From Rhizobium nepotum 39/7 (lineage in GTDB: Bacteria; Pseudomonadota; Alphaproteobacteria; Rhizobiales; Rhizobiaceae): a DNA stretch of 64,000 nt. The DNA lies in the NCBI RefSeq assembly GCF_000949865.1, contig NZ_JWJH01000019.1:1-64000 (forward strand), written 5' to 3'. The notes under the pieces are model-generated. The model was not told where the DNA came from. It did not search any database and saw only the letters and a list, made by a program, of their open reading frames with translations. Below are positions 8,049-55,210 of this stretch, piece by piece. The translations under genes and the position numbers were made by a program. Position 1 is the stretch's first letter; each line of letters begins with the position of its first letter.

Positions 8049-9695
8049 ATGATGCAGACATCCGGTAAGACGCCTTCTATGCGAAAAGGCCTGCGGACGG
8101 CAGCGCTGGCGGGTGCCGCCATAGTTTCGCTGATGGTTGGGCATGCGTCTGAAGCCAGCGCGGCCGGGACGCTTCGTATCGGCATGACCGCTTCCGACAT
8201 ACCGCTCACCACCGGCCAAACCGATCAGGGCGGTGAAGGTCAACGTTTCATGGGCTATACGCTCTATAACGCGCTCATCGAATGGGATCTCTCAAGCGCA
8301 GAAAAGCCTTCTGCACTGATCCCGGCGCTCGCAACCTCCTGGCAGGTTGATCCCGCAGACAAGACAAAATGGACGTTCAAGCTGCGTGATGGAGTAAAGT
8401 TCCATGACGGCAGCACGTTCGATGCCGCCGCAGTGGTCTGGAATCTCGACAAGCTGCTGGTTGCGGATGCGCCGCAGTTCGACAAGCGCCAGTCGGCGCA
8501 GGGCAAGTCGCGTATTCCAGCCGTTGCCTCCTACCGCGTCATCGATCCGCTGACGGTTGAGATCGTCACCAAAAGCCCCGATGCAACGCTTCCATACCAG
8601 CTGAGCTGGGTTCTCATGTCCTCACCGGCAAACTGGGAGGCGCAGGGAAAGAGCTGGGAAGCCGTCGCCCAGAAGCCTTCCGGTACGGGGCCGTGGAAAA
8701 TGGAAAGTGGTTTCACGCCGCGTGAGCGCGCTGAACTCACCCCAAACAAGGATTATTGGGATAAGGCGCGCGTGCCGAAGCTCGACAAGCTGGTTCTTGT
8801 CCCGCTTCCCGAGCCCAACACCCGTGTGGCTGCCCTGCGCTCGGGCCAAGTCGACTGGATTGAGGCGCCCGCGCCGGATTCGGTCAAATCGTTGAAAGGC
8901 GCCGGCTTCAGCATCGTCACCAATTCCTATCCGCACAACTGGACCTGGCACCTGTCACGCGTCGAAGGCTCGCCCTGGAATGATATCCGTGTTCGCAAGG
9001 CTGCAAACCTTGCCGTTGACCGCGAGGGCCTCAATGAACTGCTTGGTGGTCTCTCCGTTCCAGCGCAGGGATATCTGCCACCTGGCCATCAATGGTTCGG
9101 CAAGCCGACATTCAAGCTTGAATACAATGTGGAGGAAGCCAAGAAGCTGATGGCGGAAGCCGGTTACGGCCCGGACAAACCTATCAACACCAAGGTCGTC
9201 ATCTCCTCCTCAGGTTCGGGGCAGATGTTGCCGCTCGCCATGAACGAATACATCCAGCAGACCCTGTCGGAAATCGGCATCAATGTCGAATATGAGGTCG
9301 CGGACTGGAACACGGTCATCAACATCTGGCGCGCCGGTGCCAAGGATCCGAGTGCCAAGGGCGCCACGGCCGTCAACTACAGCTATTTCATCCAGGACCC
9401 TTTCACAGCATTGATCCGTCAGTCGCAGTGCAATCTGGCGCCGCCAAACGGTACCAACTGGGGCTTTTATTGTGATCCGGAAATGGATGCCCTGTTCAGT
9501 CAGGTGCGCAACACCTTCGACGCAGCCGAGCAGGATAAGGTCCTCCAGAAGATCCACGAGAAATATGTCGATGACGCGCTGTTCCTGATGGTGACGCACG
9601 ACGTCAATCCGCGCGCCATGTCCACCAAGGTAAAGGGCTTCGTTCAGGCACAGAACTGGTTCCAGGACTTCTCCACGATTTCCATCGACCCGTGA
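8049..9695 (+). CDS. ABC transporter substrate-binding protein, family 5 (peptide/nickel type)
   Basis: A 548-residue periplasmic receptor of the DppA/OppA type. The start at 8049 follows GAGGGA with proper spacing; an earlier in-frame ATG at 7983 would place the signal peptide far inside. The signal peptide runs through the hydrophobic LRTAALAGAAIVSLMVGHA stretch to ASAAG. Family-5 hallmarks follow: WTFKLRDGVKFHDGSTFDAA, and the central KDYWDKARVPKLDKLVLVPL block. It is first in a five-gene ABC operon. The ligand could be a di- or oligopeptide or a related amide; the neighbouring racemase-fold gene hints at an amino-acid derivative. Confidence 0.9.
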   Translation: MMQTSGKTPSMRKGLRTAALAGAAIVSLMVGHASEASAAGTLRIGMTASDIPLTTGQTDQGGEGQRFMGYTLYNALIEWDLSSAEKPSALIPALATSWQVDPADKTKWTFKLRDGVKFHDGSTFDAAAVVWNLDKLLVADAPQFDKRQSAQGKSRIPAVASYRVIDPLTVEIVTKSPDATLPYQLSWVLMSSPANWEAQGKSWEAVAQKPSGTGPWKMESGFTPRERAELTPNKDYWDKARVPKLDKLVLVPLPEPNTRVAALRSGQVDWIEAPAPDSVKSLKGAGFSIVTNSYPHNWTWHLSRVEGSPWNDIRVRKAANLAVDREGLNELLGGLSVPAQGYLPPGHQWFGKPTFKLEYNVEEAKKLMAEAGYGPDKPINTKVVISSSGSGQMLPLAMNEYIQQTLSEIGINVEYEVADWNTVINIWRAGAKDPSAKGATAVNYSYFIQDPFTALIRQSQCNLAPPNGTNWGFYCDPEMDALFSQVRNTFDAAEQDKVLQKIHEKYVDDALFLMVTHDVNPRAMSTKVKGFVQAQNWFQDFSTISIDP

Positions 9696-45606: not shown

Positions 45607-46625
45607 AACAGGAGCGTAACCGATCCCTGCGGTGGGCGCTGATGAAGCGTCTTTTCGCGTTGCAGGCGTTTTTTCTCGTTCTCTTTGTCGTCCTCCTCGT
45701 CAGCTGGATATGGATCATCAATCCGCAACTGGAAGACGCCAACGAAGAGGCCGTCCGGGTCGTTGCGGAAAGCGTGACAAGGGATGGACAGGGCCGGGTG
45801 CAAATTGCGGCTACGCCCGGACTGGCTGAGCTGAAACAGCGCTACCCGAACCTCTGGTTCACGGTGTGGGACGCCGATGCAATCGTTTCGCAATACGGAG
45901 AAATACCCCCGGCTCTGACGGCGACGTTCCCCCGCACCCTGGAGCGGGCGCGCCTGGAAACCGGGGATAAAATCCGCGCCACCATGGAAAATCGCGATAC
46001 GCCTGCCGGACGGCTGCAATTCATTGCCGGAACGGAGGGGAGTTTTCCGACCGATGGCCTCAATCTCTGGATCAGCATGCAGCTCGATCTGGAAAAAGAC
46101 CGTGACGGCGCAATCCGCTGGCTCACCGTGCTGCCCGGTTTCGGCTTCATCATTCTGATTGCCGTCGTCCCCATGCTGCTCCTGACCGGTTTTGCAACAT
46201 TGCTCGTGACACCGCGTGCGGTCGGCCGTTCACTGAGCGGCCTTATGGAAACGGTCAACCAGGCGCAATCTATCAACTTCGAAAACCGTTCCGCCCGTAT
46301 CGATCGTTCGAAGGTGCCCAATGAAATCATTCCATTGGTGGACGCCTTCAATGTTGCGCTCTCCAAGCTGGATGAGGGGTATAATCGCCGCAACCGCTTT
46401 CTTGCCGATGCCGCTCATGAGCTGAGAACGCCGATTGCAATCGCGCGGATAAGAGCCGACCTTTTGCCCGACGACGAACTGAGCCGGCAGTTGCGGGCCG
46501 ATATGGATCGCCTGACACGCGTTGCGCATCAGCTGCTGGAGATGCAGGCGGTGGGTGCGGTGGAGTTGCCCGCCGAGCAGCAGGATCTGAATATTCTTGT
46601 CGGGCGCATCGCGGGCGTATTCTAG
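45603..46625 (+). CDS. Truncated sensor histidine kinase lacking the ATP-binding domain
   Basis: 340 residues. Membrane helices at about 17-39 and 174-203 flank a periplasmic domain; HAMP and the dimerisation helices follow with His272 in AAHELRTP. The protein then stops at DLNILVGRIAGVF, just where the HATPase domain should begin (intact relatives run to about 450-480 residues). No continuation is found in other frames; beyond the stop the plus strand is antisense to the convergent DUF1217 gene, whose stop shares bases with this one. It cannot autophosphorylate alone. Possibly a dead relic, or a phosphotransfer/phosphatase partner. Confidence 0.8.
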   Translation: MKQERNRSLRWALMKRLFALQAFFLVLFVVLLVSWIWIINPQLEDANEEAVRVVAESVTRDGQGRVQIAATPGLAELKQRYPNLWFTVWDADAIVSQYGEIPPALTATFPRTLERARLETGDKIRATMENRDTPAGRLQFIAGTEGSFPTDGLNLWISMQLDLEKDRDGAIRWLTVLPGFGFIILIAVVPMLLLTGFATLLVTPRAVGRSLSGLMETVNQAQSINFENRSARIDRSKVPNEIIPLVDAFNVALSKLDEGYNRRNRFLADAAHELRTPIAIARIRADLLPDDELSRQLRADMDRLTRVAHQLLEMQAVGAVELPAEQQDLNILVGRIAGVF

Positions 46626-48946
46626 CCTCTGCGACCGCCGCGCAGCTGTGCCAACGTCGCGAGCGTATTGCCGCTGATCGAGGAACTGCCGCCCAATAAT
46701 GTCAGGAGAGGATCGGGCGCTGAATTGTTGGCCTCGAACATGACCAGAAAACGGTTGACCAGCTTTTCGACCTTCTTGGGGTCCTGCAGGTCCTTTATCT
46801 TCAGTTTTTTCTCGATCATCTTCACCTGCGCATCCAGCTTGGAATTTGCGGTTTCGGCAGGAATTCCAAGGGCGGTGCGGGTGAACTCAGCAAGCGCATT
46901 ATCGGCCAATATGTCATAGGAGTTGGAAATGCCGCCGGCCATCCGCTTGAAGTAAAGGGCAAGGCGAACCCCGGAATTTTCTTCGCCGGCCCGTTCCTCC
47001 AGCGTCTGGCGAACATATTTGTCGCGCATCTCCATGAGGCTGCGGGTGTTCTGCACGTTCTGGCCGGCTTTTGTGTTGATCTTTCCCTTAGCGTCGAAAT
47101 TGAAGGAACCGGCAAGAGCCCGGAAACGGGCATCGGTTTCGGTGTTGGCGAAGCTTTTGGGGTCCTGAAGATCGGATTTGAAAATCTTCTTCAGATAATC
47201 GGTGGTGACCGATTTGGGGTCGATACGCTGCGCAACCAGCATGAAATCGAGCAGGCGACGATCGGCAAGCAGTTGATCGGCGGTTTCGAGTGTTTCCATG
47301 CGCTGGCGATAATAGGTGATCTCTTTCTCCGCCTTCTCCTTGACCTTCTTGTCCTTGTCCCAACGGGTGATTTCCGTCAGGTAACTCCGCGATATCCGGG
47401 TGATCTCGTTTTCCGCCTGGGCGAGCCGTGGCGAGCCGATCTTGCCTTCGGAATCAAAGTTAAAGGCCTTGGCAAGCCGCACAAAGCGATCGTCTTTCAG
47501 TGTGTAAACGTAGCTTTTCGGGTCCGATAGATCGCTGGTGAACACCCGTTTGAGTGTGAAGGACGACGCTTCTCCAGCGGAAATATCAAACGCCTTCAGG
47601 GCGAAGTTTCGAATGATGACCGCCGCCTGCGCGTCGGACAGAAAATCCGCGAGATTTTTCGTCAGGCCGATGTAGCGCCGGTAGTCCTTGATCGCCTTCT
47701 CGTCCGCCACTTCGTCCTTGTCATTGTAGCGGCTGAAATAGAAATTCATCATGGTGTTGAGCTGTTCGGTGGTCTGGGCCGTCTTTCCGGTCTCGATCTT
47801 GCCATCCGCACCGAAATTGAAGGCCCGTGCCAGATCGACGAGACCCTTGTCTTTCTCTTTGTGGACAGGACTTTGCGGATCATCCGGGTCCTGTAAAAGA
47901 GCCCAGCCGATTTTCTCGTCGGTCTCGTCATTGTCCATCAGATTGAAACTGACGATCAGCATCGTTCTCAGGCGCACAAATTGGGTCATCTGGCTGGCCT
48001 CGGTGATGGTTTTCATCTTGTCGGTGAAATAATCACGGTTGAGAACCGCTCCGGCCTGCGTCAGGCGGGGATTTGAGAGAACGTAGGTTTCGTTGACCAG
48101 TCGCCTTTGGGCCGCCGTCTGCGCCGGCATGCCGTCATCCACCCGGCCATCACCCTGGAAATTGAACGCCGCCGCCATCTCGAACAACTTGTTCGCATCG
48201 TTGATACGCTTGTTATACTGGCTGATCAGATAGTCGATCTTTGCGAGCGCCACCTTGTCGATGGATGCGATTTTCGCGCGTTCTATGCGCAGGTCGGCCG
48301 CCTTTTCCTTCCAGTCCGGAATCAATGGCTTGTAGGTCTTGTTGATATAGCTATCGGCGTTGCTGATATCGCTGGTGAGAACGTCTTTGACGTGCTGGTA
48401 GCTGAAGGTTTCGGCGTCGATAGTGAAGGATTTGAAGATATAATCCCGAAGCCGCGTGTTCTTGAAGATATCGTCGACATGGCCGACCTTTTCGATGGCG
48501 ATGTTATAAAACCGCGTCTCTTCCTTTAGCTCCTCGGCTTCCTGTTCAATCGTATCGTGATAGGTGGCAATCAGGCGGTCCTGCTGTGATTTCGTCTGAA
48601 CTGATTTTTCCGCTTTGATGTTGCCGAAATCGAACGCCGTCGCGAAGTCGCGGTATCGTGTATCCTTCAGTTTGTTGGCGAAACTGTTCGGGTCGTTGAG
48701 ATCGCTTTCCAGCACCTTCTTCATGAAGGCAGTGGCATAGGTCATGTCTTCCAGGCCGTGGGCTTTCATGGCGTAGGAGTAGAGCCTGTAGTCCTTCAGG
48801 AACTCGTCAAGGCTTTTGACGTTGCCGATATTGTCCGCATAATATTTGGCATCACGCGATACGACCGGGTCGCTCGCGACGCGTTTCAGCGACAATCCCA
48901 AATCACGATTGTAGAGAGCGTAGGTCGTATAGGCGGACAGCACCAT
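46622..48946 (-). CDS. Multi-repeat DUF1217 protein
   Basis: A 774-residue soluble helical protein built from about six copies of a roughly 120-residue unit. Each copy has a pattern like LRDFxxxAFxIDxxSxxxxxxVLxSDLxDPxSFxNxxxDxRF, then LAxAFNFDxxGKI. Clear examples are VFTSDLSDPKSYVYTLKDDR, IFKSDLQDPKSFANTETDAR and VLESDLNDPNSFANKLKDTR. DUF1217 proteins are known from rhizobial flagellar gene clusters, but no flagellar gene is in this window. There is no signal peptide. CGGAG lies before the ATG. Function unknown; motility or structural role conceivable. Confidence 0.78.
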   Translation of the reverse strand: MVLSAYTTYALYNRDLGLSLKRVASDPVVSRDAKYYADNIGNVKSLDEFLKDYRLYSYAMKAHGLEDMTYATAFMKKVLESDLNDPNSFANKLKDTRYRDFATAFDFGNIKAEKSVQTKSQQDRLIATYHDTIEQEAEELKEETRFYNIAIEKVGHVDDIFKNTRLRDYIFKSFTIDAETFSYQHVKDVLTSDISNADSYINKTYKPLIPDWKEKAADLRIERAKIASIDKVALAKIDYLISQYNKRINDANKLFEMAAAFNFQGDGRVDDGMPAQTAAQRRLVNETYVLSNPRLTQAGAVLNRDYFTDKMKTITEASQMTQFVRLRTMLIVSFNLMDNDETDEKIGWALLQDPDDPQSPVHKEKDKGLVDLARAFNFGADGKIETGKTAQTTEQLNTMMNFYFSRYNDKDEVADEKAIKDYRRYIGLTKNLADFLSDAQAAVIIRNFALKAFDISAGEASSFTLKRVFTSDLSDPKSYVYTLKDDRFVRLAKAFNFDSEGKIGSPRLAQAENEITRISRSYLTEITRWDKDKKVKEKAEKEITYYRQRMETLETADQLLADRRLLDFMLVAQRIDPKSVTTDYLKKIFKSDLQDPKSFANTETDARFRALAGSFNFDAKGKINTKAGQNVQNTRSLMEMRDKYVRQTLEERAGEENSGVRLALYFKRMAGGISNSYDILADNALAEFTRTALGIPAETANSKLDAQVKMIEKKLKIKDLQDPKKVEKLVNRFLVMFEANNSAPDPLLTLLGGSSSISGNTLATLAQLRGGRRG

Positions 48947-49330: not shown

Positions 49331-50659
49331 CTACCGGGGGGTTTTGCCGGAGACCGGCATGACGGTCGCCATTTGCAGCAATGTGCGTTCGTTCGTGCGT
49401 TTGGCCCGCGCCAACGCATCGTCGCGATCTTCCGGCAGCGTATAGGTCATGTAGGACAGCGAGGTTTCGAGGTCGTTGTTGTTATGGCCGAGGATGGCCG
49501 CGAAATAGCTGTTCTTCGTGACGTGTGGCGGGGCGAAATTGTGATAGGCCACCTCAGCGTAAAGGTGCCGCAGGCCATAGGGCTTGGGCAGTTCCTGCTT
49601 CGGCCAGTGATCCTCGAACAGATTAAAGACCGTGTCCCTGAGCAGCAGGCGGGTTTCCGACGAAAAATCGTCGATCGACATGCCGAGCCACAATTTTCCC
49701 TGCCCGCTTTCGCGCAGGCGTTGATAGGCGGACAGGATCGTGGCGGAGCGGGCAAGGACGGGAATTTCGTATGTCACCCCGAACTTCGTTCCTTCGCCCT
49801 GCTTCGTCTTGGCCTGGCCGTTAAACAGGATGCTCCATTTGGAAATGCCCTTGCCATAAGGGGCAGGGGAAAATTCCGCTTGAGTGAAGACCTCATAGGG
49901 GCGTCGTCCCGTCATGCCGATCAGGCCGATGCCGATCATCAGGGGATCGGCGGACTGGAGGCAATCGGCGCAGATTTTCAGGACCTGCCGGTAGTTCTCG
50001 AATGTGATCAGGGCGCCGTGCTTGTTGGCGATCTTCTCCATCTTGACCCGGCGCGCTTCGTCATACATTGCGGCATCGCCGGTCGCGATCTTCAGCATCG
50101 GATGATCGTCGCCGAAGGCTTCGCGGACGGCGTTGCGGTATTTCGTGATGTAGGAGATGATCGTTGTCTGGGCTCTGCCCTTCATGATACCTATTTCGGC
50201 GTTCCACAAAGCCTGCATCTCGTCTTTCGAGCCGATGCCGTTCATCGCGGCAATGAAATCGGCGATCCGTAAAAGAACGGTCGGCTTGCGGCCGGCGGTG
50301 TTGAGTTCCGCCCGTTCGATTTTTTCGACGATGGATGTCGCCACACCGGTTTTCGGATAGTCGGCCCGCTCGATATAGGTCTTCAGCCGCTCCCGCAGCT
50401 TTTTCATGTTGCAGATGGCAAGCGGGGTGCTCTTGGCGCCGAATTCAGCCTTCAGGGCATAGCGATATTTCATGATGTAAAGTTCGAGCGTCTTTTCCGT
50501 GCGGCCATTGTCGAAATGGTAGCGGACCTCGGCGTCCCACAGATCGCGGATTTTTTTGTTTCGCAACGCGTCGCTGCTTTTCATCGCCTCCCGCACCCGG
50601 CCGACGAACTGGTCGATGCGTTCCACAAGAACAGGCGTTTTTGTCTTTCGTGCGAGCAT
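49331..50659 (-). CDS. telA: Telomere resolvase (protelomerase) TelA
   Basis: A 442-residue protein, the length of Agrobacterium TelA. It cuts and rejoins replicated telomere junctions to make covalently closed hairpin ends of a linear replicon. Tyrosine-recombinase-like catalytic residues are visible: Arg252/253 in GMTGRRPYEVF, a Lys in QAKTKQGEG near 284-286, Arg364-His365 in YGLRHLY, His392 in LGHNNND, and the nucleophile candidates Tyr403/Tyr406 in LSYMTYTLPEDRD (Tyr405 in the studied C58 enzyme). The N-terminal 200 residues hold two similar helical modules (TEKTLELYIMKYRYALKAEF and AQTTIISYITKYRNAVREAF). Start supported by AGGGAG. Neighbours lpiA and acvB match the chromosomal setting I recall for strain C58. 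Confidence 0.9.
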   Translation of the reverse strand: MLARKTKTPVLVERIDQFVGRVREAMKSSDALRNKKIRDLWDAEVRYHFDNGRTEKTLELYIMKYRYALKAEFGAKSTPLAICNMKKLRERLKTYIERADYPKTGVATSIVEKIERAELNTAGRKPTVLLRIADFIAAMNGIGSKDEMQALWNAEIGIMKGRAQTTIISYITKYRNAVREAFGDDHPMLKIATGDAAMYDEARRVKMEKIANKHGALITFENYRQVLKICADCLQSADPLMIGIGLIGMTGRRPYEVFTQAEFSPAPYGKGISKWSILFNGQAKTKQGEGTKFGVTYEIPVLARSATILSAYQRLRESGQGKLWLGMSIDDFSSETRLLLRDTVFNLFEDHWPKQELPKPYGLRHLYAEVAYHNFAPPHVTKNSYFAAILGHNNNDLETSLSYMTYTLPEDRDDALARAKRTNERTLLQMATVMPVSGKTPR

Positions 50660-50951: not shown

Positions 50952-52337
50952 CTATTTCGGCAGCCGGGTCTTCAGCGATGTCACGATACGCTTGGCCAGC
51001 CCTTCATAATCCTCATCGAAATGATGGCCGCCCTCGATGCCGACCGCCTCCACGCCTTTTGCTTTCAGGCCGGGGCAGGGATCTTCATCCTCTTCCTCCG
51101 TTCCATAGATGCATTGCACCAGCTTCGGGTCTATTTTGGCGATGTCGTCGATGGTCTTGCCGCCCTTGCCCTCGCCGGCGACACCCAGCCAGCCTTCGAC
51201 GGAAATTTCGAAATCCACTTCGGTCGACAGCCCCATAAGGGTTAGCTGTACGACATGAGATTTCGCGCGTTCCGGCAGAAGATTATAGGTGGCGGGAATG
51301 ATATCGGCACCGAAGGAGTAGCCGATCAGCACCACGTTTCGAACCTTCCATTCCTTGCGGTAGGTGTCGATGATACGTGCGAGATCGCCCGCCACTTCCT
51401 GAGGCTGCTTTTCTTTCCAGAAATAACGCAGCGCATCGACGCCGATCACGGGTATGCCCTGTTTTTGCAGCGCGCCGCCCACTTCCTCGTCGAGATCGCG
51501 CCAGCCGCCGTCGCCGGAATAGATCACCGCCATGGTGTCCATCACCGGGCTGGTTTCCAGAACCTTGATTGGCAGGCCGAGTGGGCTGTCCGCATCGCCG
51601 GCGGCATCAAACTGATCGGACAGGGTCTGGGTCAGAACCTCGTCCGCCTTGTCGGTCACATCCGTCACGTCGATATCGGGATGAAGTTTTACCAGCGCGT
51701 TGACGTGGTCGCGGCCCTTCTGGTCCGCATCGGGCGTGAACAACACGCTGACCGGCGCAGGCAGCGGGCCATCGGTCAGACCATAGACCGTCTCGCCATC
51801 CACCTTGTCCTTGGTGGCGGGGGTGCAGAGTATCTTCTCAAGCGGCAGACCGGCCTTGGGGTCGACGGCAATGGCTTCCCGGACAGTAGAAACCGGGCTT
51901 TGCGCGATCATGGCCAGTGCCAGCGTTCCGCCCTTGCCGATGCCGGTGAGGATAGGTTGGCGATAGCTGCTGGTGCCGGCGGTGCGCTGGATCTGCTGCG
52001 ACAGCGACTCGATGTCCGAGATCATGTAGATGCAGTCGTCGTCATCGGCCTCAAGCGCCTTCAGATATTCCTTGAAGTCGATGCCGACCACGGCGGCACC
52101 TTTTTCCACCAGCGCCTTGGCGCGTTCTTCGTCGGTATTCGTCCATCCGTCCGCGTCGGAAATCAGGAAGACGCTGGCGAGAATATCGCCGTCCGGCACC
52201 ATGATGTGCTCGGCGGGGATCATGCCGGTCTCATAGGCCGGTTTGTCCTGCGACAAGGCGGCGCTGGAAGCAAACAAGGGGGAAGCGAACAGGGCGGAAG
52301 CGGCAAGGACCGTCTTCAACATGCTGTATTTTCTCAT
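50952..52337 (-). CDS. acvB: Lysyl-phosphatidylglycerol hydrolase / virulence protein AcvB
   Basis: A 461-residue periplasmic protein. ATG 52337 (MRKYSM) overlaps the lpiA stop as ATGA; the longer frame starts inside lpiA. The signal peptide spans LKTVLAASALFASPLFASSA. Two alpha/beta-hydrolase-like halves follow. The C-terminal half, resembling VirJ, has the serine nucleophile Ser341 in GYSFGAD and a final His in EGGHHF; the N-terminal half has a degenerate elbow (TGIGKGGT). In A. tumefaciens AcvB is needed for T-DNA transfer and removes lysine from lysyl-phosphatidylglycerol made by LpiA, its operon partner here. Confidence 0.9.
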   Translation of the reverse strand: MRKYSMLKTVLAASALFASPLFASSAALSQDKPAYETGMIPAEHIMVPDGDILASVFLISDADGWTNTDEERAKALVEKGAAVVGIDFKEYLKALEADDDDCIYMISDIESLSQQIQRTAGTSSYRQPILTGIGKGGTLALAMIAQSPVSTVREAIAVDPKAGLPLEKILCTPATKDKVDGETVYGLTDGPLPAPVSVLFTPDADQKGRDHVNALVKLHPDIDVTDVTDKADEVLTQTLSDQFDAAGDADSPLGLPIKVLETSPVMDTMAVIYSGDGGWRDLDEEVGGALQKQGIPVIGVDALRYFWKEKQPQEVAGDLARIIDTYRKEWKVRNVVLIGYSFGADIIPATYNLLPERAKSHVVQLTLMGLSTEVDFEISVEGWLGVAGEGKGGKTIDDIAKIDPKLVQCIYGTEEEDEDPCPGLKAKGVEAVGIEGGHHFDEDYEGLAKRIVTSLKTRLPK

Positions 52338-54934
52338 TTTCCGATCACTCCTCTGACACCGCCACTGATCAGAACCGTCGCATCCATCAGCGCCAGAGCG
52401 GCGTCTGCGCCATTCTGCACGGCAAGGTAACGCGGTTCCCATTTTGGGTGGAACTTCGTCTTGAACGCACGAAGCCCCTTAAAGTTGTAAAAACGTTCGC
52501 CATGTTCGAAAAGCGTGCTGCCGATGCGGTCCCAGACGGGCGCCGCATCGCGTTTCGACATGCCGGACATGGGCGCCATGCCGAGATTGAAGCTTTCATA
52601 TCCCGCCTCGCGCAGATGCTGCATGATGCTGACGAAGAGGAAGTCCATCGAGCCGCGCGGCGCATCCGGTGAAAAGCGCATGAGATCGACAGTGGCTTCC
52701 TTTTTCGTATCCGTCACCATCAGATTGGCGAAGGCGGTGATCTTGTCATCCTTGCGCAGCACGGCGACGGGCTGGGACAGAATGTAATCCGGCTCGAAAG
52801 CACCGAGTGAAAAGCGCTTTTCCCGCGTATTGTGGTGCGCGAGCCAGCCGTCGGAGACCTGTTTCAGCTCGTCCAGAATATCTGCGACATGCGATCGTTC
52901 GACGACCTCGAAGGTCAGCCCGTCGCGCGCGCCGCGGCTCAGCGACTGGCGGAGATTGGCGAGTTTGCCCCCCTTCAGTTCGAACGCCGTAAGGTCCACC
53001 AGCGCCAGTTCGCCGAGCTTGAAGGCGCGCAGGCCCGCATCGGCGCAATGGGACAGGAGAAAAGGCGAGATCTGGTAAAAGGCGGCGCGTGCGCCCGCCG
53101 CGCGGGCGGCTTCCACGAATTGCCAGACGAGATCGGGGAAATCCTCCTCGTCGCCGACAGGGTCGGCGAAGGCGATCCAGGAGCGGCCCTGAATGCCGTA
53201 CATGATGAAGGCGTTGCCGCTTTCGGAGAACATCACGTGCTTGTCGCCCATACGCACCAGATTGGCGTCGGCCGAATCCTGCGTCATCACGATGGTGGTG
53301 GCATTTGCGACATCGTCGGCCTCGATCGCATCCGGCCGGAAGGCCACCGGCCGCATCAGGCTGAAGATGGCGATGGTGGACGAGGCGAGTACGAGGCCGA
53401 GAAGGGCGCGCAATCCGCGTGGGGCTTCCTCGGAGAATTCGAACTGCCACCACAATGTCTGGCTGTAATCCGTATCGCGATAGACGAAAAGCAGGATGGT
53501 TGCCGCGCCCGCCACGATGACGGCCATGGCGGCGAGCCAGCTTGGGCCCAGCGCCTGCTTCACCAGCGAAGCATGGCGGTTGAAGCTGCGCATATTGGCG
53601 GCAAGGGCTGCGATGAAGATGCCGAGGATTGCGGCTTCGAAAACCGCTATGGCCTTGAGGAGGGAGAGAACCAGCGCCAGCGAGGCGGCGACGAGGGCGA
53701 TCCACCAGGCGCCGTCCAGCCGCTGCCCGAGGCCGCGCGAGGCGACGACCAGAACGAGGCCGAGAATGCTGGTGAGAAAATGCGCCGCCTCGATGATAGG
53801 CAACGGTACGAAATTGGACAGGAAATCCAGATTGCCGTCGGGTGTCGGCGTCACGCTCGAAAAGATCAGCATGGTGCCGAGGATCATCGCGAAGGTCGAC
53901 AAAAGCGGCGGCGCGAGCCGGACGGCAAGCTGGCTGATATCGGAAACCACCGGCTTTGCCGCGAACTGCTTCATCTCGGAGACGAGCATCACCAGAATGG
54001 CGACCACCAGCGGCAGGACGTGATAGATCACGCGGTAAAGGACGAGGCTTCCGAGCAATTGGTCGACGCTGATCGCATTGCCGAGGCCCGCGACCATCAC
54101 GGTTTCGAAAACGCCGAGACCGGCCGGCACGTGGCTGAGGACGCCGAGGCCGACGGCGGTGGCGTAGATTGCGAAGAATGTCGGCCAGCCGAGATGCGTG
54201 TCGGGCAGCAGCACGTAGAGCACGGAGGCGGAAGCGGCGATATCGAAGGCGGAAACCAGGAACTGACGCGAGGATGTGCGGCTGTCGGGAAGGCGAAGTC
54301 GCCAGGCGCCGAGCCGGATCGCGCGGCCGTTGCGCCCGACATAGGCGGCGACGACAAGAGCCGCGATAACGGCCAGCGCGGCCGTTCTGAGAACCAGGGC
54401 GTCGACGCCAATAATGGCGGCGATACGCGGCGCGACGATCAGGGTGGAGATTGCACTGACCGAAAGCAGGCCAAGCCCGAAGGAAAGTGTGACGAAGGCA
54501 ATGACGCGGGCGATTTCGCCGGGCGACAGCCCGAGCCGGGAATAGGCGCGAAAGCGGATCGCACCGCCGCTCAACGGCCCGAAACCGGCGGTATTGCCAA
54601 TGGCGTAGGCAGCGAAGGCCGTTGCCGCCATGGGCGGAAACGGAAGCTTGCGGCCGATAAATTCGATTGCATTGGCGTCGTAGAAGATCAGCGCCAGAAA
54701 GCTGAGCGCGGTGAAGACGATGGCGAGCAGAACCGCCGAGGCCGAAGTTTGCATCAGCGCTTCGATGACATCGTCATAGCGGACTTCGGAGGTCAGGTGA
54801 TATATGGCGAAGGTCATCATCACGAAGACCAGCGTGATGGCGATCGCGGTCAGGTAGGAACGGTTTCTTGCGAAAAAGCTCTCAACCGCAGATTCCGTGA
54901 CATCGGTTTGTATGATTTCGCTCTTGTCTGCCAT
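52334..54934 (-). CDS. lpiA: Lysyl-phosphatidylglycerol synthase LpiA (MprF family)
   Basis: An 866-residue membrane enzyme that transfers lysine from Lys-tRNA to phosphatidylglycerol, lowering membrane negative charge. The start at 54934 (MADKSEIIQTD) is preferred to 54988 because it gives the usual short cytoplasmic N-terminus. About fourteen helices fill residues 25-530 (flippase part, with GAIRFRAYSRLGLSPGEI). The C-terminal soluble catalytic domain shows GNAFIMYGIQGRSWIAFADP, GSMDFLFVSIMQHLREAGYE and SFNLGMAPMSGM. It is followed by acvB with a four-base overlap. Confidence 0.9.
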   Translation of the reverse strand: MADKSEIIQTDVTESAVESFFARNRSYLTAIAITLVFVMMTFAIYHLTSEVRYDDVIEALMQTSASAVLLAIVFTALSFLALIFYDANAIEFIGRKLPFPPMAATAFAAYAIGNTAGFGPLSGGAIRFRAYSRLGLSPGEIARVIAFVTLSFGLGLLSVSAISTLIVAPRIAAIIGVDALVLRTAALAVIAALVVAAYVGRNGRAIRLGAWRLRLPDSRTSSRQFLVSAFDIAASASVLYVLLPDTHLGWPTFFAIYATAVGLGVLSHVPAGLGVFETVMVAGLGNAISVDQLLGSLVLYRVIYHVLPLVVAILVMLVSEMKQFAAKPVVSDISQLAVRLAPPLLSTFAMILGTMLIFSSVTPTPDGNLDFLSNFVPLPIIEAAHFLTSILGLVLVVASRGLGQRLDGAWWIALVAASLALVLSLLKAIAVFEAAILGIFIAALAANMRSFNRHASLVKQALGPSWLAAMAVIVAGAATILLFVYRDTDYSQTLWWQFEFSEEAPRGLRALLGLVLASSTIAIFSLMRPVAFRPDAIEADDVANATTIVMTQDSADANLVRMGDKHVMFSESGNAFIMYGIQGRSWIAFADPVGDEEDFPDLVWQFVEAARAAGARAAFYQISPFLLSHCADAGLRAFKLGELALVDLTAFELKGGKLANLRQSLSRGARDGLTFEVVERSHVADILDELKQVSDGWLAHHNTREKRFSLGAFEPDYILSQPVAVLRKDDKITAFANLMVTDTKKEATVDLMRFSPDAPRGSMDFLFVSIMQHLREAGYESFNLGMAPMSGMSKRDAAPVWDRIGSTLFEHGERFYNFKGLRAFKTKFHPKWEPRYLAVQNGADAALALMDATVLISGGVRGVIGK

Positions 54935-55210
54935 TTGATTATCCAGCGCCCGTTTCCCGGTTGGCGAACCACAGGAATGTGTCGCCAATTCGTTTCGGTT
55001 TCGGAAATGTGATTAGCAGAAAAGCATGAAGTGTCGATGTGAAGTTTATGCGCGGTTCTTCGCAAAGCCCGCCAAGTCTAAAGGTAAAAATGCAACTGGG
55101 GAATGCGGGATTTTCGAGATTGCTCCAAAACGCGCCAAATTGACCGTAACGGTTGCTTGGTGATGGTGTTTGATGCGACTACACGCTCCTTTCAATTGAA
55201 GGAGATGCAA

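Follow-up and report, generated by a model that had tools for sequence, protein, structure and literature searches.

A telA telomere resolvase gene in Rhizobium nepotum 39/7: a probable linear chromid, a duplicated N-terminal module and a candidate linear chromosome in Candidatus Tokpelaia sp. JSC161

The window analysed here (64,000 nucleotides of Rhizobium nepotum 39/7, positions 1 to 64,000 of contig NZ_JWJH01000019.1) carries a gene that encodes a telomere resolvase (protelomerase). We consider it nearly certain that this is the telA gene of an Agrobacterium biovar 1 strain, whose enzyme acts on a linear chromid rather than on its own replicon and seals the hairpins of that chromid. The gene is a member of a known Agrobacterium family. 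Linear chromids served by TelA are already familiar in Agrobacterium, and the gene therefore adds little beyond its annotation. The points worth following up are a duplication within the protein, a chromid whose ends may be alike, and the possibility that the main chromosome of Candidatus Tokpelaia sp. JSC161 is linear, which may outrank the window gene in importance. (Handles beginning with G, C and L denote genomes, contigs and sequence stretches, respectively.)

The gene occupies positions 49331–50659 of the minus strand as one open reading frame of 442 amino acids; the plus-strand reading of the same positions is broken by a stop. A phmmer comparison with PDB sequences matched the product to TelA chains such as 4dwp over residues 3–439 (E = 3.6e-273), a full-length match to the C58 enzyme that is a trait of TelA telomere resolvases. 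The catalytic domain (residues 222–406; 49442–49996, minus strand) was recognized as Pfam ResT-TelK_cat (PF16684; 130.7 bits where the cut-off is 27; E = 5.7e-38), and no other Pfam family was found at E values up to 1. Four sequence motifs listed in an earlier note on this DNA (including GMTGRRPYEVF, GLRHLY and LGHNNND) are all present in the translation.

The copy encoded by genome G302, which we take to be that of strain C58 (where the two were compared by eye, its TelA agrees with the crystal chain), is identical to the window protein at 396 of 437 positions (91%), with residue numbers in the window protein equal to those of C58 minus 2. We aligned 28 TelA sequences drawn from 38 telA matches in the genus, leaving out L019, L024 and L026 (in which a stop was flagged in the stretch) and seven without a given locus. 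All nine of Y405, Y201, R205, R255, K286, K288, Y363, R366 and H394 (C58 numbering) are identical in 28 of the 28 sequences, while position 330, to which no role is assigned, is serine in 27 and asparagine in one. We presume functional roles for K286, K288, R366 and H394 of the C58 enzyme. For the other five, Tyr405 has been described as the nucleophile, R255 and Y363 as active-site residues and Tyr201 and Arg205 as refolding residues (PMC3558466, cited like the other papers here from the accessible portion of its text). The nucleophile corresponds to Tyr403 of the window protein, is kept, and is encoded at 49451–49453 (minus strand). The earlier identification of the product as a 442-residue telomere resolvase like that of Agrobacterium is thus borne out by phmmer, Pfam and the nine kept residues, and the alignment with C58 TelA that had been proposed as a check gives 91% identity to the G302 copy with the nucleophilic tyrosine in place.

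The protein does belong to the same catalytic superfamily as the tyrosine recombinases, and its telomere is known here from sequence alone; that it might be a conventional tyrosine recombinase, or a vestigial enzyme lacking a telomere to act on, is nonetheless scarcely credible, given that ResT-TelK_cat is its only Pfam match at E values up to 1, that its catalytic residues are intact and that a matching target is present in its own genome.

That target lies on contig C62 of the same assembly, which is a draft of 79 contigs. When the half-site of C58 TelA, in the form that we presume it to take, was searched against the 5.33 Mb of the genome with one mismatch allowed, two matches were found, at C62:510–523 and C62:528–541; they form one mirrored pair around CATG and share the same single mismatch, and a reversed-pattern control gave no match in the same 5.33 Mb. 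The TelA target in C62 is ATATTGTTATTATA mirrored about CATG. It sits at the centre of a snap-back of approximately 1,050 nucleotides, in which C62:1–1049 matches its own reverse complement at 94% (92–96% by segment) within a contig of 5,029 nucleotides. TelA targets are reported to hold TCATGA between the scissile phosphates (PMC3558466), and a palindromic target with this hexamer is present at C62:510–541. Sequencing reads have been described as running round such hairpins into the other strand (PMC13293297). The two arms of C62 differ in 34 of 527 columns, so the contig is not the simple read-through of one hairpin, and beyond the snap-back it runs on into sequence that, as judged by eye, resembles the right end of G302's linear contig. 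The snap-back with the TelA-site palindrome at its centre supports the reading of C62 as the mark of a hairpin end, and with it the linear replicon with hairpin ends that had been predicted for this genome.

The reaction itself can be proposed by analogy with C58 biochemistry. A TelA dimer would bind each replicated junction, cleave the two strands at points 6 bp apart by forming 3'-phosphotyrosine links at Tyr403, and fold each strand back, whereupon two hairpins would be sealed.

The neighbours of telA, assigned by domain search, are a DUF1217 gene downstream (46622–48946, minus strand) and acvB upstream (VirJ domain; 50952–52442, minus strand), with lpiA (LPG_synthase_C domain; 52334–54988, minus strand) on the same side as acvB; the DUF1217 gene and lpiA lie outside the telomere system. 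The same order of the four genes is seen by eye in A. pusense LMG 25623 (L096), and telA is a single copy in its own genome. Across nine near-complete relatives with telA in the 90–95% identity class, the gene is on contigs of 2.8–3.2 Mb, and in G313 (80%) it is on a 3.3-Mb contig, while genes of the 68–69% class, in G303, G304 and G329, are on chromid-sized contigs of 1.5–1.9 Mb. (The two contigs of G302 measure 2,841,580 and 2,075,577 bases.) This distribution by class agrees with the published location of the enzyme gene, on the circular chromosome in biovar 1 and on the chromid in rubi-clade strains (PMC13293297), and by that account a trans-acting copy is already in print. The earlier suggestion that a chromosomal telA acts in trans is consistent both with that paper and with the 2.8–3.3 Mb contigs of the ten near-complete relatives. 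An exception to this size range is G326, whose telA (91%) is on a 2.17-Mb contig (C2, the smaller of two; L030) that has no telomere in the outer 400 nucleotides at either end; a replicon rearrangement or an assembly error may account for its position. Separately, G306 has, beyond its chromosomal telA, seven short TelA-like matches on contigs C6 and C7, some of them in opposite orientation.

The enzyme might instead serve a linear plasmid or plasmid-prophage, as linear plasmids with protelomerases of their own exist in the Rhizobiaceae, one of these enzymes sharing 67.3% identity with the chromid-associated enzyme that its strain also has (PMC13293297), and as protelomerase-like genes occur on 11 of 72,556 plasmid records. 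We regard this as very unlikely, however: telA is present once, among chromosomal genes whose order is repeated in A. pusense, the plasmid enzymes found match the window protein at only 25–38% identity, and the sequence into which C62 runs on resembles, by eye, the right end of the G302 linear contig.

Telomere sites of the same kind were found elsewhere in the genus. A search of 39 genomes for the exact 13-mer ATATTGTTATTAT gave 19 copies in 8 of them, with 15 of the 19 within 140 nucleotides of a contig end and the other four forming the centres of two snap-backs, that of C62 and that of G307:C26; the reversed 13-mer matched once in each of two of the 39 genomes. Absence of the exact 13-mer from the remaining 31 may reflect trimmed ends or variant sites. 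In G307:C26 the palindrome is exact and without a spacer over 2 x 1,498 of the 3,013 nucleotides examined, and its centre (13049/13050) coincides with the midpoint of the 26,098-nucleotide contig; perfect palindromes of smaller size were found at the ends of contigs in G323, G304 and G303. In a survey of the outer 200–700 nucleotides of 13 of 18 contig-end stretches (L062–L079), a telomere site was found in five (L062, L063, L064, L065 and L078), three begin inside a subtelomere recognizable by eye (L070, L071 and L073), and five (L066, L067, L068, L072 and L075) have neither telomere nor subtelomere within that distance. Genome G297, taken as A. arsenijevicii KFB 330, has three telomere-bearing contigs and may hold a second linear replicon; at L040:30–59 (G297:C1) a telomere site has CTTG in place of the central CATG, so that its tip is not self-complementary.

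Comparison of sequence beyond the site distinguishes two types of telomere, one marking the start of both G302:C2 and G323:C2 and the other marking their end. The C62 arms both belong to the end (right-end) type, on which ground we rejected the idea that an unlike left and right end had been joined there as a chimera. The arms are identical over their first 72 and their last 20 nucleotides, and the differences between them over positions 73–505 comprise 20 transitions, 9 transversions and 5 gap columns. A start-type telomere query of 1,386 nucleotides (from G297:C17) found only the terminal 54 nucleotides of C62 in the window strain's genome, at 83%, and the first 20 kb of G302:C2 gave no match there before position 8,732 among the 40 of 162 candidates scored. 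Contig C48 begins with 34 nucleotides identical to C62:2325–2358 and, in the same direction, contains DNA homologous to that found 10.7–11.6 kb from the start of G302:C2 (again among the 40 of 162 candidates scored). We believe the simplest reading of these sequences, toward which we lean with some reserve, may be that both ends of the chromid now have end-type telomeres inside a shared terminal repeat of approximately 2.4 kb.

A competing explanation, to which we give a smaller though appreciable chance, is that the difference between the arms stems from two strains or alleles in the culture, or from sequencing error, rather than from two telomeres of one chromid. The assembly is a draft with 1.42% contamination in the genome table, the 20 identical nucleotides at the start of C62 are fewer than the 34 of the overlap at C48, and the merging of the arms past position 525 is presumed. 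The differences between the arms, on the other hand, have the composition of true divergence, the left-type query reaches only the outermost 54 nucleotides of C62, and the joining in C48 of the 34-nucleotide identity to left-subtelomere-like DNA of G302 is what would be expected if both ends shared a terminal repeat. A chromid with two ends that have possibly become alike bears on how hairpin ends recombine; no print report of one was found in a literature search. DNA of A. salinitolerans pDG3-1d also matches the C62 subtelomere; in that record, an 11-mer telomere search with one mismatch allowed gave no match in the first 15.4 kb, and no palindrome was seen by eye in the first 450 nucleotides.

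The window protein also contains an internal duplication. An hhalign comparison of TelA residues 1–103 with residues 104–200 gave 97.2% probability (E = 3e-11; 31% identity over 67 columns), and its score of 62.3 compares with 23.1 for the highest of 200 column shuffles. The matched modules, residues 8–82 (the N-terminal domain; 50414–50638, minus strand) and residues 125–191 (the N-core, a helical-bundle DNA clamp; 50087–50287, minus strand), are tandem copies, and their pairwise score of 74 compares with a maximum of 49 in 2000 shuffles, while four comparisons of both N-terminal parts with two catalytic segments gave E values of 0.2–0.61. When an HMM of the N-terminal domain was run against all PDB sequences, it recovered the domain itself and the TelA core, the latter at 44.3 bits; the N-truncated construct 4f41 was matched at E = 4.6e-11, and the next match was at E = 0.79. 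The similarity between residues of about 55–75 and 164–183 that had earlier been taken to suggest duplicated N-terminal modules is therefore far beyond chance and can be extended to 8–82 and 125–191.

The duplication is also seen outside telA. With six sequences of the wider family (a seventh, from Xanthobacter, was left out of the profile as it has no N-terminal part), hhalign gave 98.3% (E = 1.4e-14) and a score of 78.4 against 18.4 for the best of 200 column-shuffle controls. Four non-telA sequences alone (Tokpelaia, Mesorhizobium, an A. deltaense plasmid and Phaeobacter, two of them nearly identical) gave 95.2% (E = 2.9e-8) with a score of 45.8, where the highest of 60 shuffles reached 14.6, and crossed profile comparisons scored 54.2 and 37.6 against controls of 18.1 and 17.4. 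Pairwise tests on single sequences are weak: 193 of 2000 shuffles reached the observed score for Tokpelaia, and 15 of 2000 for Mesorhizobium. Because the four non-telA sequences on their own and the crossed comparisons score far above shuffles, the duplication of the module probably predates the split of the Agrobacterium and plasmid-type enzymes.

The N-terminal domain of TelA has been reported to anneal single strands while being dispensable for resolution (PMC7861564), and to bind DNA non-specifically and inhibit the enzyme (PMC11271964). Judged by the profile comparisons above, this annealing and autoinhibitory domain is a paralogue of the DNA-clamping N-core. We infer that it keeps the DNA-binding surface of the core, from which the published non-specific binding, annealing and autoinhibition would follow. 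The duplication is not mentioned in the accessible portions of those two papers, nor was it found in a literature search that was poor in subscription papers.

Within the genus, telA was found in 38 of 39 genomes, the exception being G315; A. divergens has been reported to have no linear chromid (PMC13293297). A wider sample of the family gave a match in 8 of 297 genomes, six of them of this genus (the window strain's own genome included) together with the distant G182 and G188. The description of such enzymes as rare in bacteria therefore fits the family sample and does not fit the genus. Matches among plasmid records (11 of 72,556) have 25–38% identity. A tblastn search of 50,697 phage records for a relative gave no match at E = 1e-5, a threshold at which the known phage protelomerases are probably too distant to be detected.

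One of the two distant genomes, G182, was assembled from a metagenome and belongs to Candidatus Tokpelaia sp. JSC161, a symbiont of the ant gut with a reduced genome. Its contig C1 (QEND01000001.1; 714,118 nucleotides) contains two identical, divergent TelA-like genes of 437 amino acids within a palindrome of 2 x 2,433 nucleotides that is 100% complementary and without a spacer (L080:4011–8876, at about 350,010–354,875 of the contig). The palindrome also holds the duplicated 3' part of a gene resembling pyruvate carboxylase. GC skew in eight sampled stretches is positive in all four on the left (0.16 to 0.24) and negative in all four on the right (-0.13 to -0.23), and in the unique flanks just outside the palindrome it is 0.18 to 0.27 versus -0.10 to -0.17; the change of sign at the very centre follows from symmetry, and the informative part is the unlikeness of the unique flanks. 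The core of the palindrome is ACACCGGTGT with flanking TATATAA, in common with palindromes of A. deltaense pEL101-131 and Mesorhizobium denitrificans, whose homologues are 41% identical to the Tokpelaia protein, as compared with 30% for the window TelA.

An assembler faced with two identical hairpin ends would produce such a spacerless palindrome at the terminus, and JSC161 is in our view a candidate, drawn from a metagenomic assembly, for an unrecognised linear main chromosome, with the palindrome probably representing its joined hairpin ends. We rate as fairly probable the combined proposal that the TelA system is modular, that this sole main chromosome is linear with hairpins in 2.4-kb terminal inverted repeats, each bearing a TelA-like gene that came from the linear-plasmid lineage of the family, and that an old duplication of the core, preceding the split, gave rise to the annealing domain. 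The TelA-like gene is absent from three other genomes of the same genus that were examined, and the two circularised genomes of planthopper Tokpelaia (PMC12661939) count against linearity as a general trait. The accessible main text of the JSC161 genome paper (PMC6044324) contains no word that starts with linear, telomer, circular, inverted or terminus; the paper reports that JSC161 has neither recFOR nor recG while the other three symbionts keep both. A literature search found no report of a linear chromosome in Tokpelaia or of a protelomerase in the Bartonellaceae. If the JSC161 chromosome is linear, its congeners without the gene would allow the switch from a circular to a linear form to be studied.

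Two plasmid-type relatives have palindromes of their own. A. deltaense pEL101-131 (NZ_CP143887.1), which is labelled circular, has a 99% palindrome of 2 x 134 nucleotides near a protelomerase gene (L084:449–716); one and the same protein accession occurs to either side of it, and there are two protelomerase places in 131.5 kb. The record may represent a linear plasmid of about 66 kb that was assembled head to head. A 57.6-kb contig of Mesorhizobium denitrificans LA-28, possibly also a linear plasmid, starts with a perfect palindrome of 2 x 43 nucleotides on ACACCGGTGT (L081:1–86, L092:1–86) and has a protelomerase gene at 2.4 kb; at its other end, no such palindrome is present in the last 300 nucleotides.

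Among known systems, Borrelia ResT belongs to the same catalytic family as the window protein (PDB 8vs5, E = 1.8e-6, residues 219–415), but the match is limited to the catalytic part. The protelomerases of Alphaproteobacteria plasmids and of Tokpelaia JSC161 share the catalytic domain and, by a profile in which four were pooled, the tandem N-terminal and core modules; against the Tokpelaia protein the window TelA is 30% identical and the plasmid-type proteins are 26–41% identical, and the target core differs, being ACACCGGTGT in the three whose palindromes were examined. The Xanthobacter protelomerase differs further in having no N-terminal part. The chromid-borne TelA of the rubi sub-clade (67–69% identical class) has the same domains, and telomeres of the same kind are found in G303 and G304; its gene is on a chromid-sized contig (G303, G304 and G329), however, and its half-sites differ, as with ATACTGTTATTGTA in G303. 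The closest likeness is to Agrobacterium fabrum C58 TelA (PDB 4DWP, 4E0G), at 91% identity in G302 (taken as C58), with the same functional residues, the same target core ATATTGTTATT around CATG and a gene copy on the large chromosome. The window strain differs from C58 in its own half-site, ATATTGTTATTATA, and in its two observed telomere arms, both of which match the type that G302 has at the right end of its linear contig.
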